Assembly: GCF_005889725.1 (NCBI RefSeq)
Contig: NZ_VCKX01000012.1
Location: forward strand, 1 to 64,000
DNA length: 64,000 nt
Direction: 5' to 3'
Source of the DNA: Nonomuraea zeae
GTDB lineage: Bacteria; Actinomycetota; Actinomycetes; Streptosporangiales; Streptosporangiaceae
Part shown: positions 50,046 through 64,000 of the stretch, one piece after another
How the letters are laid out: the number at the start of each line of letters is the position of its first letter
Numbering within the stretch: the first letter of the stretch is position 1
The notes under the pieces: model-generated
Told to the model about the DNA's origin: nothing
Seen by the model: only the letters and a program-made list of their open reading frames with translations
Database searches by the model: none
Position numbers and translations under genes: made by a program

Positions 50046-50099
50046 GTTCCGCGGCGTGCCAAAAAGTCCTAAAAAACTCAACAATCGGCAGGCGTGACA

Positions 50100-54853
<4,754 letters not shown>

Positions 54854-54857
<4 letters not shown>

Positions 54858-57800
54858 GCCTGTCAGCCCAGCAGCGCCAGCTCCTGGAGGCGTTACGGAA
54901 GAAGAAGCAGCAGGCCGCGCCGCCGTCCAGGCCGGACCGGCTGCCGATGTCCTTCGCCCAGCTGCGCGCCTGGTATCTGGACCGGATGGCGCCCGGCGCC
55001 GCGCACTACCTGATCCCGCTCGCCTTCCGCATCGAGGGCCCGCTCGACCGCGACCGGCTGCACCGCGCCCTGAACGCGCTGGTCGCCAGGCACGAGAGCC
55101 TGCGCACCACGTTCGCCATGGACGAGGACGGCCCGTACCAGATCGTGGCCGGGACCCTCGCGATCGAGCTGGCGGACGCCGCGGACGAGACGCCGATGGA
55201 CCTGACCACCGGCCCGCTCATCCGCGCGCACCTGGTGCGCGAAGACGCCGGCCGGCACGTGCTGCACCTCACCCTGCACCACATCGTGGCCGACGCCTGG
55301 TCTCTCGACGTGCTGCGCAGGGAGCTGAGCGCGCTCTACGACGGCCAGGAGCCGGCCGCGCTGCCGAGGCAGTACCCGGACTACGCGATCTGGCAGCGGG
55401 AGCAGGACTTCGGCGCGGACCTGGACTACTGGCGCACGACGCTGGCGGGCGCGCCGCCGCTCACCGAGCTGCCGCCGGACCTGCCCAGGCCGGCCGTCCA
55501 GACGTACGCGGGGGCCGAGCTGCCCTTCACGCTCGACCTTCCGCGCGAGGAGTTCGCGGCGTACTGCCGGAGCCTGGGCGCCACCCCCTACATGGTGCTG
55601 TTCGCGGCCTACCTGGTGGTGCTCTCCCGGCGCTCGGGCCGGCGGGACCTGGTGGTGGGAACGCCCATCGCCAACCGGGACCGGATCGAGTACGAGGGCC
55701 TGATCGGGTTCTTCACCAACACCCTGGCCATCCGTGCCGACCTGTCGGGCGAGCCGTCGTTCGCCGAGGTGGCCGAGCGGGTCAAGGACGCGGTGCTCGA
55801 CGCCCACGAGCACCAGGGGATGCCCTTCGAGCGGCTGGTGGAGGAGCTCAACCCGGAGCGCCGCCTGGACCACGGGCCGGTGTTCCAGACGATGTTCAAC
55901 ATGCTGCCCGCGGCCACGGCGGAGCTGGAGCTGACCGGACTCACGGTCACCCCCGTGGAGATCCCCGAGCGCACGGCCAAGTTCGACCTGACCGTGGGCG
56001 TGCGCGAGAGCCTGGACGGGCTCGTGGAGTACAACACGGACCTGTTCCACGAGGCGACGATCCGCGGCCTGGTGGCCGACCTGCGGCAGGTGCTGAGCAC
56101 GGCGATGAGCGGCGAGGAGCCGGCCGCGGACCTGCCGCGGCACCAGATCGCCCAGATCGTCACCCGTGCCTGGCGCGAGGCGCTGGGCAGCGACGCCTTC
56201 GGCCCCGGCGACAACTTCTTCGAGGTCGGCGGCCACTCGCTGCTGGTCCTGCAGGTGCACGAGCGGCTGCGCAAGCGGTTCAGCCTGACGGTCACCGACC
56301 TGTTCAGGTATCCGACGATCGCCTCGCTGACGGCGTACCTGAGCCCCGAGGCTCCGGCGCCCGCGGTGGTCACGGCCGCCGCACCCGCGAGCGGCGCGCT
56401 CGCCATCGTCGGCATGGCCTGCCGGTTCCCCGGCGCGAGCGGGCCCGAGGAGTTCTGGGCGGCGATCCGCGACGGGGTGGAGGCCGTCCAGGACTTCACC
56501 GACGAGGAGCTGCTCGCCGACGGCGAGGACCCCGACCGGCTGGCGGACCCCGCCTACGTCCGGTCGGGCACGGTGCTGGACGGCATCGACCTGTTCGACG
56601 CCACGCTGTTCGAGTTCACCCCGCGCGAGGCCGAGATCCTGGACCCGCAGCAGCGGCTGTTCCTGGAGAGCGCCTGGGAGGCGCTGGAGGACGCGGGCTG
56701 CGACCCCGCCCGCCATCCCGGGCAGATCGGCGTCTTCGCCGGCTCGGCCATGAGCAGCTATTTCATCGAGAACCTGCTGGCCGCCCCCGACGTGCTCAAG
56801 GCGGTGGGCGAGTACCAGGTCATGCTCAGCAACGACAAGGACTCGCTGCCCACCAGGACCTCCTACAAGCTCGACCTGCGCGGGCCGAGCATCAGCGTCA
56901 ACACCGCGTGCTCCACCTCGCTGGTCGCGCTCCACCTGGCCAGGCAGAGCCTGCTGGCGGGCGACTGCGACGTCGCGCTGGCCGGAGGCGTGCGGGTCAA
57001 CGCCTGGACCCGCCGCGGCTACCTCTACCAGAGCGGTGGGATCGGCTCGCCGGACGGCCACTGCCGCCCCTTCGACGCCGCCGCCCAGGGCACGATCGGG
57101 GCCAGCGGCGTGGGCGTCGTCGTGCTCAAGCGGCTGGAGGACGCCCTCGCCGCGGGCGACACCGTCCACGCCGTGGTACGCGGCTCCGCGGTCAACAACG
57201 ACGGCACCAGGAAGGTCGGCTACGCCGCGCCCGCCGTGGACGGCCAGGCCGAGGTCATCACCGCGGCGCTGGCCGCGGCCGGCGTCGATCCCGGGACCAT
57301 CGGCTACGTCGAGGCGCACGGCACGGGCACCGCGCTCGGCGACCCCATCGAGGTCGCGGCGCTCTCCCAGGTCTTCACCGGGGACCGGCGGATCGCGCTG
57401 GGCTCGGTCAAGTCCAACATCGGGCACGCCGACGCGGCCGCCGGGATGGCCGGGCTGATCAAGACCGTGCTGGCGCTCAAGCACCGCACGCTGCCGCCCA
57501 CGGTCAACTTCGCGGCGCCCAACCCGCGCATCGACTTCAGCCCGTTCTACGTGCCCACTACCGGCGAGGAGTGGCCGCAGGGCGAGGGGCCGCGCAGGGC
57601 GGGCGTCAGCGCCTTCGGGATGGGCGGCACCAACGCCCACGTCGTCCTGGAGGAGGCTCCCCCGAGCCCGTCCGCCGCCGTCGCGCAGGAGGGGCCGCAC
57701 CTGCTGCTCCTGTCGGCCGCCGGCGAGTCCGCGCTGGCGGAGTCGGCCACCCGGCTGCGCGCCCACCTGCGCGAGCATCCCGGCACGGACCTGGGCGACG

Positions 57801-60800
57801 TCGCCGCCACCCTGCGGCACGGCCGCCGCCAGCTGCGGCACCGTGGCGTCCTGGTGGCCGGGGACCCGCGCTCGGCGCTGGAGGCCGAGCTCATCACGGG
57901 CGAGGCGCGGGCGCGCGAGATCGCCTTCCTCTTCCCCGGGCAGGGCGCGCAACGCCGCGGGATGGGCGCGGGGCTGTACCGGTCGGACGACATCTTCCGC
58001 GCCACGATCGACGCAGGCTCCGGGATCCTGCGGCCGTACCTCGGTCTCGACCTGCGCGAGGCCCTGTACGGCGAGGGCGGCGACCTCGACCAGACCTGGC
58101 TCACCCAGCCCGCGCTCTTCCTCACCGAGTACGCCCTCGCCCGCACGCTGATCGAGCGCGGGGTCCGACCGTCGATGATGGCCGGGCACAGCATCGGCGA
58201 GTACGTCGCCGCCTGCCTGGCCGGGGTCTTCACCCTGGAGGACGCCCTGCGCCTGGTCGCCGCCCGCGGCCGCCTCGTGCAGAGCCTGCCCCCCGGCTCG
58301 ATGCTGGCCGTGCCGCTGCCGGAGTCCGAGGCGACCGGGCTGCTCAGCGAGGACATCTCGCTGGCGGCGGTCAACACGCCTGAGATGTGCGTCCTGGCCG
58401 GCCCCGAGCAGGCCATCGACGAGCTGGAGCGGCGGCTGACGCGGCAGGGCGTCGCCTGCCGCCGGCTGCGCACCTCCCACGCCTTCCACTCCGCCATGCT
58501 GGACCCGGTGCTCGACGCCTTCGCCGCCGAGTTCGCCTCCGTGCAGCTCGGCACGCCGGAGCTGCCGTACCTCTCCAACGTCACGGGCGGCTGGGCGTCC
58601 GGCGCCGAGACCAAGGACCCGGCCTACTGGGTACGCCACCTGCGGGAGACCGTCCGGTTCGCCGACTGCGCCCACGCCCTGGTGGCGGCCGGCGCGGCGG
58701 TGCTGGAGGCGGGCCCGGGACGTACGCTGGCCATCCTGGTACGCCGCCAGGGCGGCCAGGCGACGGCCACCCCGCTGGCCGAACCGGACGGCGGGCCGGC
58801 CGCGCTGCTGGAGGGCGTCGGCCGGCTGTGGGTGGCCGGCGCCGGCATCGACTGGGCGGCCTTCGGCCCGCCGGGCAGGCGGGTGCCGCTGCCCGCCTAC
58901 CCGTTCGAGCGGCGCCGCTACTGGATCGGGCCGCGCACCCGGCGCTCCGAGGTCGCGGCGGCGCCGGTGGCGCGCGCGGACGAGGAGCACGACGCGGTCG
59001 CCGCCGCCTGGCGGGACGTGCTCGGCATCGCGCCGGCCGGCCCGCAGGACGACTTCTTCGAGCTGGGCGGCGACTCCCTCGTGGCCACCCAGCTCGCCTC
59101 CCGCCTCGGCCTGCCCATCGAGGCGGTCTTCGAGCACCCCACGCTGGGCGGCCAGCGGGCGCTCCTCGCCGCGGCCGACGCCCGGCGGCCGGCGGTCGCC
59201 GTCCCGGCGGCCGCCCGGGAGGTGATCCCGGTCGTCGAGGAGCCCGGTCCCGTGCCCGTCTCGTTCATCCAGCGGCGCATGTGGTTCATCGACCAGGTGC
59301 ACGGCTCGGCCGCCTACGCCGTGGCCACGGCTCTGGACCTGCGGGGCGAGCTGGACGCGGAGCGCCTGCACGACGCCCTGCGCGGGCTGGTGCGGCGGCA
59401 CGAGTCGCTGCGGACCGTCTTCCGCGCCCCTGACGGCGAGCCGGTCCAGGTCGTGCTGCCCGAGATCGACACGCCGCTGCCGGTCGAGGACTGCGACGAC
59501 GCCGAGCGGGCGCTGAGCCGGGCCGTGGCCGAGCCCTTCGACCTGGCGCACGGCCCGTTGTTCCGGGCGCGGCTGCTGCGGCTCGCCCCCGGCCACCACG
59601 TGCTGTCGCTCGTCTTCCACCACATCATCGTGGACGGCTGGACGATCACGATGCTGGAGAACGAGCTGGCCGCGCTGTACAGGGGGGAGACGCTTCCCGA
59701 GCAGCGGGTCAGGTATCGCGACTACGCGCGCTGGCAGCGGGGGCAGAGCTCCGACCTCGGCTTCTGGAAGGAGCGGCTGCGCGGCCTGCCGCACAGCCTC
59801 GACCTGCCCACGGACCGGCCGCGCCCGCCGATGCAGACCTTCGAGGGGGCGGTCGCGACCTGCGCGCTGCCCGCGGAGCTGGCGGCGGGGCTGCGCAGGC
59901 TGAGCCAGGAGCGCGGCGCCACGCTCTACATGACCCTGCTGGCGGCGCTGCACACGCTGCTGTACCGCTACAGCGGCCAGGAGGACGTCGCCATCGGCTC
60001 GCCGGTGGCCGGGCGGACCCGTCCCGAGCTCGAAGGGATCGCGGGCTGCTTCATCAACACGCTGGTCATGCGGGCCACCATGGACGGCGGCCTGCCGTAC
60101 ACCGAGCTGCTGGCGCAGGTGCGCGACTACGCCCTGGGCGCGTACGCCCACCAGGACGTGCCGTTCGAGCGGCTCGTGGAGGAGCTCAACCCGCCGCGGG
60201 ACCTGTCGCGCAACCCGCTCTTCCAGGTGCTGTTCAACCTGCTCAACCTGCCCAAGAGCGACCTCGGCATGACCGGGCTGGCCGTGGAGGAGCTGGCCGT
60301 GGAGGCCGGCACCGCCCAGGTGGACCTGGTGCTCTACGCCTACGAGCAGGGCGACGAGCTGCTGTGCAAGCTGGAGTACAACACCGCGCTCTACGACGCC
60401 GGCACCGCCGGGCGGCTGCTGCGGCACTACGAGGCCCTGCTCTCCGCGATCGTCGCGGCGCCGGAGACCCCGCTGTCCGGCCTGGCCTTCCTCACCGGCG
60501 AGGAGCTGGCCGAGCAGCTCGGCAGCCAGGACGTCGAGGTGCCGGAGCTGTGCGTCCACGAGCTGGTGGAGGCGCAGGCCGACCGGACGCCCGGCGCCGT
60601 GGCCGTCACCTTCGAAGGCGTCTCCCTGACGTACCGGGAGCTGGACGAGGAGGCCAACCGGGTCGCCCACCGCCTGCGGGCGGCCGGAGTGCGGCCCGAG
60701 GAGCTGGTGGGCGTCGCGATGGAGCGGTCGGCGACGATGCTGGTCACGCTGCTCGGCGTGCTGAAGGCGGGTGGCGCGTACGTGCCGCTCGACCCGATGT

Positions 60801-63800
60801 ACCCGCAGGAGCGCCAGGACTACATCCTCGGCCACTCCGGCATCGGCGTCCTGGTCACCGAGCGCGAGCTGGCCGGGCGTTACACCGGCTTCCAGGGGGA
60901 GCTGATCCTGGCCGACGACGGCTTCGCGGACGAGAGCCCCGCGCGGCCGGCCGCGTCGGCCACCCAGCAGAACCCCTGCTACGTCCTGTACACCTCCGGC
61001 TCCACCGGGCGGCCCAAGGGCGTGCGCGTCCAGCACTCCTCGGTGGTCAACTTCCTCGCCTCGATGCGCCGGGAGCCCGGCCTGACCGGCCGGGACACGC
61101 TCCTGGCCGTCACCACGTTCGCCTTCGACATCTCGGTGCTGGAGCTGTTCCTGCCGCTCACGGCGGGCGGGCGCGTGGTGATCGCGAGCCGCGAGGCGGC
61201 CTACGACCCGGTACGGCTGGCCGCCCTGCTGGACGAGGCCACCGTCATGCAGGCCACGCCCGCGACCTGGCGGCTGCTGCTGTCGTCGGGATGGGCGGGC
61301 AAGCCGGAGCTGAAGGCGCTCTGCGGCGGCGAGGCGCTGCCCGCCGACCTGGCCACCGACCTGCGCGGCCGGGTGGCCGAGCTGTGGAACATGTACGGGC
61401 CGACCGAGACCACGATCTGGTCCACGCTCACCCGGGTCACCGACGGGCCGATCACGATCGGCCACCCGATCGCCAACACCCGGATCCACCTGCTCGACGC
61501 CGCGATGCAGCTCGTCCCCACCGGGGTGGTCGGCGAGCTCTACATCGGCGGGGCGGGGCTGGCCCGCGACTACCTCCACCAGCCCGAGCTGACCGCGGAG
61601 CGCTTCGTCACCTGGCAGGACGGCCGCCGGCTGTACCGGACCGGCGACCTGGCCCGCCGCCGCGCCGACGGCTCGATCGAGTTCCTGGGCCGGGCCGACG
61701 GGCAGGTGAAGGTCCGCGGCTACCGGATCGAGCTGGGCGAGATCGAGTCGCACCTGCTGGCCCATCCCGCGGTCCGCGAGGCGGCCGTGGTGGTGCGCGG
61801 CTCGGACGAGGACAAGAGCATCGCCGCCTACCTGACCACCGTCGCCCCTCAGGAGGCGGGCGCAGAGCCCGACTGGCGGGAACATCTGCGGCGCAAGCTG
61901 CCCGACTACATGATCCCTTCGGCGTTCGTGCTGCTGGACGCGCTGCCGCTGACCCCCAACGGCAAGGTGGACCGCAAGGCGCTGCCCGAGCCGGTGAGCC
62001 AGGCGCGCGCCGAGGGCACGGCGCCCAGGACGCCGTCCGAGGTCAGGCTGGTCGAGCTCTGGTCGGCGATCCTGGGCGTGCCCGGGATCGGGATCGACGA
62101 CGACTTCTTTGCGCTGGGCGGCGACTCGTTCAAGGCCGTGCGCGCCGTGCGGGACTCGGGGATCCAGGCGACCGTGCTGGACCTCTTCAAGAACCCCACG
62201 ATCCGCGCCTTCGCCACGCTCGACGGCTCGTCGCAGCAGTCCGGCCTCCTGCACGAGCTGACGCCCGCGCGGTCCGCGGCCTCGCTGACCCTGGTCTGCA
62301 TGCCGTTCGCGGGCGCCGGCGCGATCACGTACCAGCCGCTGGCGGCGGCCATGCCCGAGCACGTCAGGATGCTCGCGCTGGAGCCGCCCGGCCACGACAC
62401 CGGCAACCCGGGCGAGCCCGTGCTGCCCTTCCACGAGCTGGTGGAGGGCTGCGTCAAGGAGATCAGGGAGAAGACGAGCGGGCCGCTCGCCCTCTACGGC
62501 CACTGCATGGGCGGGGCGCTCACCGTCGAGCTCGCGCGCCGGCTGGAGGAGGAGGGCGTGGAGCTGGAGAAGGTGGTCATCGGCGGCCACTTCCCCGCGC
62601 CGCGCCTGCCGGGCAAGACCTTCGCCTGGTTCCGCCGGGTCTTCCCGATGGAGCGGTGGACGTCCAAGCGGCAGGCCCTGGAGTTCCTGCGGGCCATGGG
62701 CTTCTTCACCGAGGCGCTGGAGCCCGCCGAGCGCGACTTCATCATGGGCGTCTTCCTGCACGACACCCAGGAGGGCGAGGACTACTACACCGACCTCTAC
62801 CGGGCCCCCATCACGAAGCTGTCCGCGCCGCTGGTCTGCGTGGTCGGCGAGAACGACCGCGCCACCGAGCTGTACGAGGAGCGCTTCCGCGAGTGGGAGG
62901 CCTTCTCCGACTCGGTGTCGCTGGAGGTCATCCCCAAGGCCGGGCACTACTTCCAGAAGCACCAGGCGCCCGAGCTGGCCGAGATCCTCGGCGATGCGGA
63001 CCGGACCCCGGCCCCGCTGCCGCCCCGGTACCAGGAGGCCAGCCTGAAGACGTTCTTCTCGGTGGCCTTCGGCCAGCTCGTGTCGCTGATCGGGACCGGG
63101 CTGACCACGTTCGGGCTGGGGCTGTGGGTCTACCAGCAGACCCGATCGATCTCGATGTTCGCCATCGTCTCGGTGATGGCGCTGCTGCCCGCCGTCGTGC
63201 TGGCGCCGATCGCCGGAGCGGTGGCGGACCGCTGGAACCGCAAGACCGTCATGATCACCGCCGACTCGGCGGCCGGCTGCGCCTCAGCCGCGCTGGCGGC
63301 GCTGCTCTGGACGGGCGGGCTCCAGCTCTGGCACGTGTACGTCATCGTCGCCGTCGGAGCGGTGTCGACGGCCTTCCATCAGCCCGCCTACATGGCGGCC
63401 GTGGCCCAGCTGGTGCCCAAACGCTATTACGGCAGAGCCAGCGGCGTGGCCCAGCTCGGCCAGGCGGCGGGGACCGTGCTGGCTCCGCTGATGGGCGGCG
63501 CGCTCGTGGCCGCCATCGGGCTGAGCGGCATCATCCTCATCGACCTGTCGACGTTCGCCTTCGCGGTCACCGTGACCCTGGCGGTCCGCTTCCCCGACAC
63601 GCTGTTCAAGAAGCGGGAGGAGACGTTCTGGCAGGAGGTGACGGGCGGCTGGCGCTACATCACCCGCAGGCACGGGCTGCTGGCGATCATCCTGTTCACC
63701 TCGTTCCTGAACTTCCCGTTCGCGATGGTGGAGGTCCTGGCCACGCCGCTGCTGCTCAGCCTCACCGACACCCGTGGCCTGGGCCTGGCGCTGTCGATGA

Positions 63801-64000
63801 CCGGCGTCGGGCTGCTGACCGGCAGCGTGATCATGACGGTCACCGGCGGCCTGGCCCGCCGGACCACCGGCATCCTCGGCTGCTTCGTGGCCCTGGGCTT
63901 CGCCTTCGCGATCATCGGGATCGCGCCGCACCCGGCGCTGCCCGCGATCGGGCTGTTCTTCGTCGGGCTGCTCACCGCGCTGCTGAACGCGCACTGGTTC
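54854..64000 (+). CDS. Hybrid NRPS-PKS with thioesterase and MFS transporter in one frame (truncated by window end)
   Basis: At least 3049 codons, open to the edge. Domains in order: condensation (32-440; HHIVADA at 142-148, Gly of HHxxxDG replaced by Ala); carrier (Ser462); ketosynthase (516-935; Cys686, His822, His858); acyltransferase (1024-1330; GHSIG with Ser1113, HAFH at 1209-1212, malonyl-CoA type); carrier (Ser1408); condensation (1468-1885; HHIIVDG at 1589-1595); adenylation (1910-2400; code D-I-L-Q-C-G-M-I-W, glycine type); carrier (Ser2425); thioesterase (2465-2710; GHCMGG with Cys2551, Asp2668, His2698). From about 2725 it is an MFS transporter, ten helices visible, with motif-A-like GAVADRWNRK. 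There is no KR, DH or ER, so the extended unit stays a beta-ketone. The first module has no adenylation domain. Reading frame was checked at the KS, A, TE and MFS motifs and is the same throughout. Codon 14 is TTA (54893-54895). Confidence 0.9.

Follow-up and report, generated by a model that had tools for sequence, protein, structure and literature searches.

Organization of the fused gene

The DNA analyzed here (the window) comprises bases 1–64000 of one contig, labeled C35, of the actinobacterium Nonomuraea zeae, whose whole genome is 13.6 Mb. Near its right-hand end lies a gene in which a hybrid nonribosomal peptide synthetase (NRPS) and polyketide synthase (PKS) ending in a thioesterase (TE) is fused with a transporter of the major facilitator superfamily (MFS). 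The gene opens at an ATG at position 54854 of the forward strand and remains open through the window end; its stop is at contig position 64336, 336 bases further on, giving a product of 3160 aa. Pfam matches over the curated cut-offs were found for Condensation (two stretches), PP-binding (three), the N- and C-terminal parts of ketoacyl-synthase, acyltransferase, AMP-binding, Thioesterase (best stretch, residues 2479–2579), MFS_1 (residues 2737–3072) and MFS_3. The domain order in this one chain is C-PCP-KS-AT-PCP-C-A-PCP-TE-MFS (C, condensation; PCP, peptidyl carrier protein; KS, ketosynthase; AT, acyltransferase; A, adenylation), in which the limits of the first C domain and of the second PCP were set by our own reading. 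All domain types of a hybrid NRPS/PKS megasynthase, that is C, A, PCP, KS, AT and TE, are present in the single frame. A first-pass annotation of the same DNA had described an uninterrupted frame from the synthetase into the MFS transporter, and both the domain content and the position of the stop bear this out. The whole chain has a single AMP-binding stretch, and no A domain belongs to its first module. The carrier domain of this C-PCP pair (positions 54941–56341) must be loaded in trans or skipped. Coordinates of all features are given in Table 1.

Table 1. Features of the NRPS1 and NRPS-PKS-TE-MFS genes in the window
Feature	Position	Strand	Basis and remarks
NRPS1, 1587 aa, A-PCP-C-A-PCP	50094..54857	+	Pfam; stop overlaps next start (ATGA at 54854)
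NRPS-PKS-TE-MFS gene, 3160 aa	54854..64000 (true end 64336, past window)	+	Frame, Pfam
First condensation domain	54941..56143 (approximate)	+	Pfam gives two Condensation stretches; limits by own reading
PCP1	56156..56341	+	Pfam residues 435–496; module without A domain
Ketosynthase	56402..57511	+	Pfam residues 517–764 and 772–886
Acyltransferase	57926..58729	+	Pfam residues 1025–1292
Carrier domain after AT	59051..59182 (approximate)	+	Three PP-binding stretches in Pfam; weak profile match 1400–1443
Second condensation domain	59252..60505	+	Pfam residues 1467–1884
Terminal A domain, code DILQLGMIWK	60569..61966	+	Pfam, A-code reading
Terminal PCP	62009..62218 (approximate)	+	Pfam and alignment
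Thioesterase: Cys2551 (codon 62504–62506), Gly2578, Asp2668, His2698	62249..62989	+	Pfam, alignments
Pro-rich linker	62990..63043	+	No in-frame start codon
MFS exporter domain	63044..64000, continues to residue 3160 (64336)	+	Pfam, AlphaFold2, fold search

The MFS domain and the junction

At the junction, the TE sequence AGHYF is followed by a Pro-rich stretch, LGDADRTPAPLPPRYQ, and then by helix 1 of the transporter, the same succession that the first-pass annotation had read from the DNA. From the TE His motif up to helix 1, no in-frame ATG, GTG or TTG occurs in the window, and the MFS domain should therefore be made solely within the long chain. An AlphaFold2 model built from a 42-row alignment (mean predicted local distance difference test score, pLDDT, 86.1; predicted template modeling score, pTM, 0.83) contained the TE fold and an MFS fold whose helices we read as 12 membrane spans. 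At least ten helices had been proposed before; the last helices, the C-terminal tail and the stop lie past position 64000. NorA, VMAT2 and MdfA were among the closest structures in a fold search with the MFS part. The MFS_1 score was 92.3 bits against a gathering score of 33.4, and the H+ antiporter model TIGR00900 (2A0121) of NCBIfam gave 182.2 bits, below its cut-off of 319.6. Loops assigned to the cytosol, N- and C-terminal tails included, contained 23 Lys/Arg residues, compared with 4 in those outside. This charge bias puts the MFS N-terminus in the cytosol, as had been assumed earlier, and with it the TE on the cytosolic side.

A Cys-type thioesterase

The TE of the window protein has a Cys nucleophile in a GHCMG motif. 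Its best PDB sequence match was ObiF1 (E value 2e-34), and in a PDB fold search with the AlphaFold model ObiF1 ranked first and SulM second to fifth, followed by type II thioesterases. Cys2551, Asp2668, His2698 and Gly2578 align with the Cys nucleophile, the position-II Asp, the His and the position-I Gly of ObiF1, respectively, assuming an inferred 20-residue offset of the PDB chain. Thus, the Cys nucleophile, the Asp after beta7 (position II), the His, the Gly at position I and the nearest fold are all those of the ObiF1/SulM type. Among 44 aligned fused TEs, the Cys was present in 43 and the Asp and His in all; two Gly residues near position I each occurred in 41 rows. The sole Ser nucleophile (GHSVG) was that of Streptomyces sp. 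NRRL S-31 (L039). The class III branch of the fusion (L073, L083–L088, L094 and L118) has an extra residue in the nucleophile motif, which reads GHCG, one further residue and G.

The two reference enzymes resemble the window TE to different degrees. ObiF1, the obafluorin NRPS (PDB 6n8e), is described as having a Cys nucleophile, a RifR-like Asp at position II and a Gly at position I, the usual place of the Asp; it differs in carrying an MbtH-like domain after the TE and no transporter, and in a terminal residue with a beta-hydroxyl, compared with the Gly-like one presumed here (PMC6668435). The PCP-TE of SulM from the sulfazecin pathway (PDB 8w2c and 8w2d) also has a Cys nucleophile and an Asp at position II; there the nucleophile is surrounded by Gln-Cys-Asn, whereas the window TE has His-Cys-Met, and SulM has no MFS (PMC11298585). 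The words "MFS" and "transporter" do not occur in the main text of that paper. A Cys-TE of this kind marks clusters that may have unusual release chemistry.

Distribution of joined frames

We first scanned named genomes with the MFS part alone as query, after a prefilter by two short peptide patterns from fused proteins. At all 31 named loci recovered, the MFS was in frame with a TE-bearing protein of 1772–3770 aa (the frames of L028 and L031 run off the locus ends). Nine of the named loci are orthologues (L012–L020) with the same long frame, and the nearest named relatives belong to Nonomuraea. The source genome itself has a second synthetase, on contig C269, that ends in C-A-PCP-TE-MFS and is 45% identical over PCP-TE-MFS, and a third TE-MFS fusion on contig C140.

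A test free of this prefilter used profiles of each part separately over 54 genomes assigned to Nonomuraea from their relatives. With the MFS-only profile, for which the best 31 first-look candidates per genome were scored, 134 matches were obtained at 1e-30. All 80 matches of at least 305 bits were joined to a TE, 79 of them within frames of 1400 aa or more; the remaining one (G173, L142) has a frame of 881 aa, this short because its upstream A domain runs on in another frame. Between 240 and 305 bits, 8 of 28 matches were joined, in frames of at least 1400 aa, and 20 were in shorter frames; three of these 20 had frames of 924–1251 aa, in which the upstream part was not a synthetase in frame and the MFS was separate, behind a C-A synthetase. 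Below 240 bits, no match (0/26) was in a frame of at least 1400 aa. The TE-only profile, scored on the best 50 first-look candidates of each genome, had 97 matches at 1e-25, and the 88 of at least 270 bits were exactly the 88 joined MFS frames, with the same contig, genome and length of frame. Of the 54 genomes, 43 had one or more frames of 1400 aa or longer. The first-pass annotation had suggested looking for the join in relatives, where an MFS that was always a separate gene would have spoken against it; instead, the nearest homologues in the genus are all joined.

Of the nine lower-scoring TE matches, all four that were inspected have the Cys, lack the MFS and reach a stop 9–24 residues after the TE. 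Since these carry a Cys and yet no MFS, Cys-TEs of the ObiF1/SulM type also occur outside the fusion and are probably older than it.

Wider surveys, all including the source genome, scored the best 2 or 3 candidates per genome, and their counts are therefore lower bounds. TE-MFS profile matches were detected in at least 145 of 345 genomes of the order at 1e-60, a count that includes genomes with a separate MFS alone. In an even draw from the class, at least 23 of 394 genomes matched at 1e-80, 6 of them outside the family. In an even draw from the phylum, at least 11 of 396 matched at 1e-40; besides the source genome, none of the other ten spanned both parts (7 MFS only, 3 TE only). Named hits came from Nonomuraea, Microtetraspora, Streptosporangium, Microbispora, Sphaerisporangium, Bailinhaonella, Catellatospora, Rhizocola, Dactylosporangium and one Streptomyces. 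In plasmid records, matches from Embleya (two) and Streptomyces clavuligerus (three) spanned TE and MFS, and the three of these five that were inspected were one frame each; five cyanobacterial matches had the MFS alone. The TE-MFS join seems to be an ancient arrangement that many related actinobacteria have retained.

Origin of the fusion and unfused relatives

In an MFS tree of 65 sequences (FastTree, midpoint root), which took in 10 of the 20 shorter-frame Nonomuraea matches at 240–305 bits, the 45 fused sequences formed one clade with a support of 0.983 and the 20 separate ones fell outside. A TE tree was rooted on two Ser-type rows and included 6 other TEs; one candidate (L104), whose motif was not found, was dropped. 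Here the 44 fused TEs formed one clade (support 0.867) beside a Cys-TE without MFS. Neither tree gave a sign of several fusion origins, and we infer from these topologies that the fused genes would trace to one fusion event.

Unfused relatives of the transporter were examined at 13 Nonomuraea loci, 11 of which have the MFS gene directly behind a same-strand C-A synthetase. In all eight junctions inspected of these 11, the synthetase has a reductase-like end with the sequence TGATGFLGAHL, and the MFS gene overlaps or adjoins its stop. NAD_binding_4, a reductase-type release domain, was found in all five of these synthetases sent to Pfam. Loci L127, L128, L129, L132, L133, L136, L137 and L138 (also L144–L146), with a separate MFS as the gene after the NRPS, are natural unfused controls. 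At L130 and L131 the separate MFS gene is flanked by divergent NRPS genes and precedes one of these. Three of four cyanobacterial loci also have the MFS directly behind an NRPS gene: on the Trichormus plasmid and two Nostoc plasmids it starts 14, 32 and 1 bp, respectively, behind the gene for an NRPS whose terminal TE is of the Ser type (motif GWSMG twice, GYSFG once). These cases belong to the same MFS family and the same position downstream of a terminal NRPS, and differ from the window protein in the separate gene and the Ser-type TE. Since the unfused relatives adjoin NRPS genes, the MFS family is tied to NRPS products independently of the fusion. Within the relatives sampled, the join goes with one thioesterase type.

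A two-gene unit and its product

We compared the locus with those of orthologous genomes using 44 rough gene calls between contig positions 26 and 94 kb, covering about 11–15 kb on the upstream side, from 8 genomes, and about 10 kb on the downstream side, from 10 (one of these genomes was present twice). Positions 1–45000 of the window were covered by gene calling and, starting at 26 kb, by this comparison. Only NRPS1 and the fused gene were conserved across the orthologue neighborhoods of the 10 genomes. Two of the other 42 calls each had a single hit, weak and partial, at 39% and 29% identity; hits over less than 40% of a gene were not printed. NRPS1 is 76–88% identical among orthologues, and the ATGA overlap of its stop with the start of the fused gene was seen in the window and in all seven orthologues printed. 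L073 and L032 likewise have, immediately upstream of the fused gene, a synthetase containing two A domains, one C domain and two PCPs. Judged by this conservation, NRPS1 and the fused gene form a self-contained two-gene unit with a probable built-in exporter. Because no other transporter is present at the conserved locus, the earlier suggestion that the synthetase has its own exporter is well supported by context.

The terminal A domain has the code DILQLGMIWK in the window clade, DLTKIAHVSK in the clade of the C269 protein, DLLKVAHVAK in class II and DVWHISLVDK in part of class III; in several rows the code could not be read. We take the first to be Gly-like, the second Asp-like and the last Ser-like. 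A beta-lactone-forming NRPS ends with a beta-hydroxy amino acid, and the window code, presumably Gly-like, is not of this kind, which speaks against a beta-lactone or beta-lactam as the window product. A siderophore cluster was also considered; in a limited check, no siderophore gene was found among the 10 proteins scanned around L073, L032 and L031.

Possible function and alternative explanations

To our knowledge, the route by which assembly-line products reach their exporters is mostly open. For the window protein we consider it probable that it is a membrane-tethered terminal synthetase with a dedicated built-in exporter, which releases and exports the product of a two-gene unit and goes back to a single fusion. 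The single chain, the intact triad, the MFS fold and topology, the two genes conserved together and the one fused clade are read directly from sequence or model. NRPS1 and the soluble modules would build a short peptide/polyketide chain, in keeping with their domains. The terminal Cys-TE would take this chain from the last carrier domain and release it, as the conserved Cys-Asp-His triad suggests, and the MFS domain, held by a short linker with its N-terminus in the cytosol, would carry the product out of the cell, probably as a proton antiporter, as its fold, topology and genomic setting suggest. That this domain exports the product is likely. The fusion may have arisen once, from an MFS gene adjoining a release domain, and have been kept while the synthetases diversified, as the trees suggest; its benefit could lie in a constant 1:1 ratio of synthetase and exporter and in their closeness. 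The first-pass annotation had recognized the fusion and its topology and had overlooked that the TE is of the Cys type and resembles ObiF1 and SulM, that the gene belongs to a two-gene unit and that the fusion seems to have a single origin.

Several observations weigh against this reading or lessen its support. The scan of named genomes favors fused copies, since its prefilter patterns came from fused proteins, and the two profile tests, which are free of this bias, scored solely the best 31 (MFS) or 50 (TE) candidates per genome. The high correlation of pairwise TE and MFS distances (r = 0.97, 946 pairs; none of 5000 permutations as high) speaks in favor, but such correlation, like the matching trees, is expected anyway for two parts of one gene. 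Two of the 13 separate Nonomuraea relatives (L130 and L131) lie upstream of, and not behind, a same-strand NRPS gene, and the MFS gene of a Gloeocapsa plasmid (L117) follows, at a distance of 3 bp, the gene of a TonB-dependent siderophore receptor. The context of L117 hints at siderophore export in this distant relative. Finally, the MFS sequence had no PDB match at an E value of 0.01 that would point to a substrate.

A simpler explanation, to which we give about an even chance, is that neighboring genes merged and the fusion merely fixes expression and location, the TE and MFS working independently and the MFS exporting or anchoring without hand-over. This is compatible with the tethered synthetase-exporter favored above save for coupling. 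The separate sister MFS genes, which overlap or adjoin an NRPS stop, indicate that the unfused arrangement works too, and linker length, counted between alignment marks, ranges from 17 to 87 residues, unlike a tuned interface. On the other hand, none of the 20 separate sequences falls inside the fused MFS clade, which would be odd if the join were useless. Proximity of release to the export channel, as proposed in the first-pass annotation, follows from the geometry; a coupled hand-over would go beyond it. In the boldest form of the idea, the TE would pass the product directly into the inward-facing MFS cavity in one coupled step, and a specialized Cys-TE/MFS pair would have spread among many and varied actinobacterial synthetases as a portable terminal cassette, yielding two-gene clusters in need of no other exporter; we regard this as unlikely.

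The exporter could also have been attached to protect the cell by quick removal of a reactive strained ring (a beta-lactone or beta-lactam) made by the Cys-TE. We hold this for improbable, even though the TE is nearest to ObiF1 and SulM and shares the arrangement of their triad, with an Asp at position II and a Gly at position I, and the terminal code in part of class III is Ser-like. Against it, the codes point to a Gly-like residue in the window, with no beta-nucleophile, and to an Asp-like one in the C269 clade; the His-Cys-Met of the window differs from the Gln-Cys-Asn of SulM; no other conserved gene at the locus would make or sulfonate a beta-hydroxy amino acid; and related Cys-TEs without an MFS exist, namely all four inspected of the nine lower-scoring matches.

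Still less probable is a nominal fusion, in which proteolysis would detach the MFS or translation from an internal start would produce it alone. One or more in-frame ATG, GTG or TTG codons were present in 49 of 83 linkers scanned, although the scan overran the linker in some rows (most clearly L034 and L041); one further row, L094, gave no motif. The window protein and seven of the nine named members of its clade have no such codon, and the other two (L017 and L020) have one GTG each. An artefact of frame-shift, assembly or annotation has a negligible chance: the assembly consists of 756 contigs with an estimated contamination of 8.8, but the same long frame in the nine orthologues, which come from other assemblies, and the two paralogous fusions in the source genome rule out chance or assembly error and counter the frameshift or stop between TE and MFS that the first-pass annotation had named as a danger.

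A maker and its exporter in one conserved chain of seemingly single origin, with unfused sisters that use another release domain, make coupling directly testable. The TE-MFS didomain also suggests itself as a portable part for engineering secretion.

Comparison with known systems

Product names such as "non-ribosomal peptide synthetase/MFS transporter" are in use at NCBI; the stretches from Embleya and S. clavuligerus came without annotation. Among the literature matches listed, judged mainly by titles and abstract openings and with most subscription papers outside the scope, there was no bacterial NRPS-MFS fusion. The closest cases differ in one or more respects. Epsilon-poly-L-lysine and poly-ornithine synthetases are likewise NRPS-like proteins with a C-terminal membrane domain, but this consists of six helices arranged as three pairs, has domains in between that take part in polymerization, and lacks an MFS fold (PMC10522769), compared with the 12-helix MFS fold of the window protein. 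ZmaM likewise combines a maturation enzyme and a transporter in one chain; it is a late-acting peptidase, not a synthetase, fused with a half-transporter of the ATP-binding cassette (ABC) type, not with an MFS (PMC9889268). A TE followed by an MFS is also found in the domain lists of a Verticillium PKS, tabulated as KS-AT-ACP-ACP-TE-MFS (ACP, acyl carrier protein; PMC9495618), and of an Ophiocordyceps protein with a Te-MFS string (PMC11057048); these differ in being fungal gene models known from domain listings. Another kind of MFS fusion, with sensor kinases, is listed as an MFS family in PMC3924187.

Neighboring genes and minor features

Past the window end, on the minus strand (L009 10885–18791; contig 64885–72791), are genes for two thiamine pyrophosphate (TPP)-dependent enzymes, for a protein of 457 aa with no match in Pfam and for one of 1003 aa that matches animal-haem-peroxidase and catalase. 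The obafluorin pathway has a TPP enzyme. All four downstream genes were considered as cluster partners of the fused gene and rejected, as none is conserved in the orthologues. Near the C269 fusion, a further MFS gene (L011 2025–3467, MFS_1) is present that is absent from the 18 fused-MFS profile matches in the source genome. One match in another genome (G238:C484) contains one in-frame TGA.

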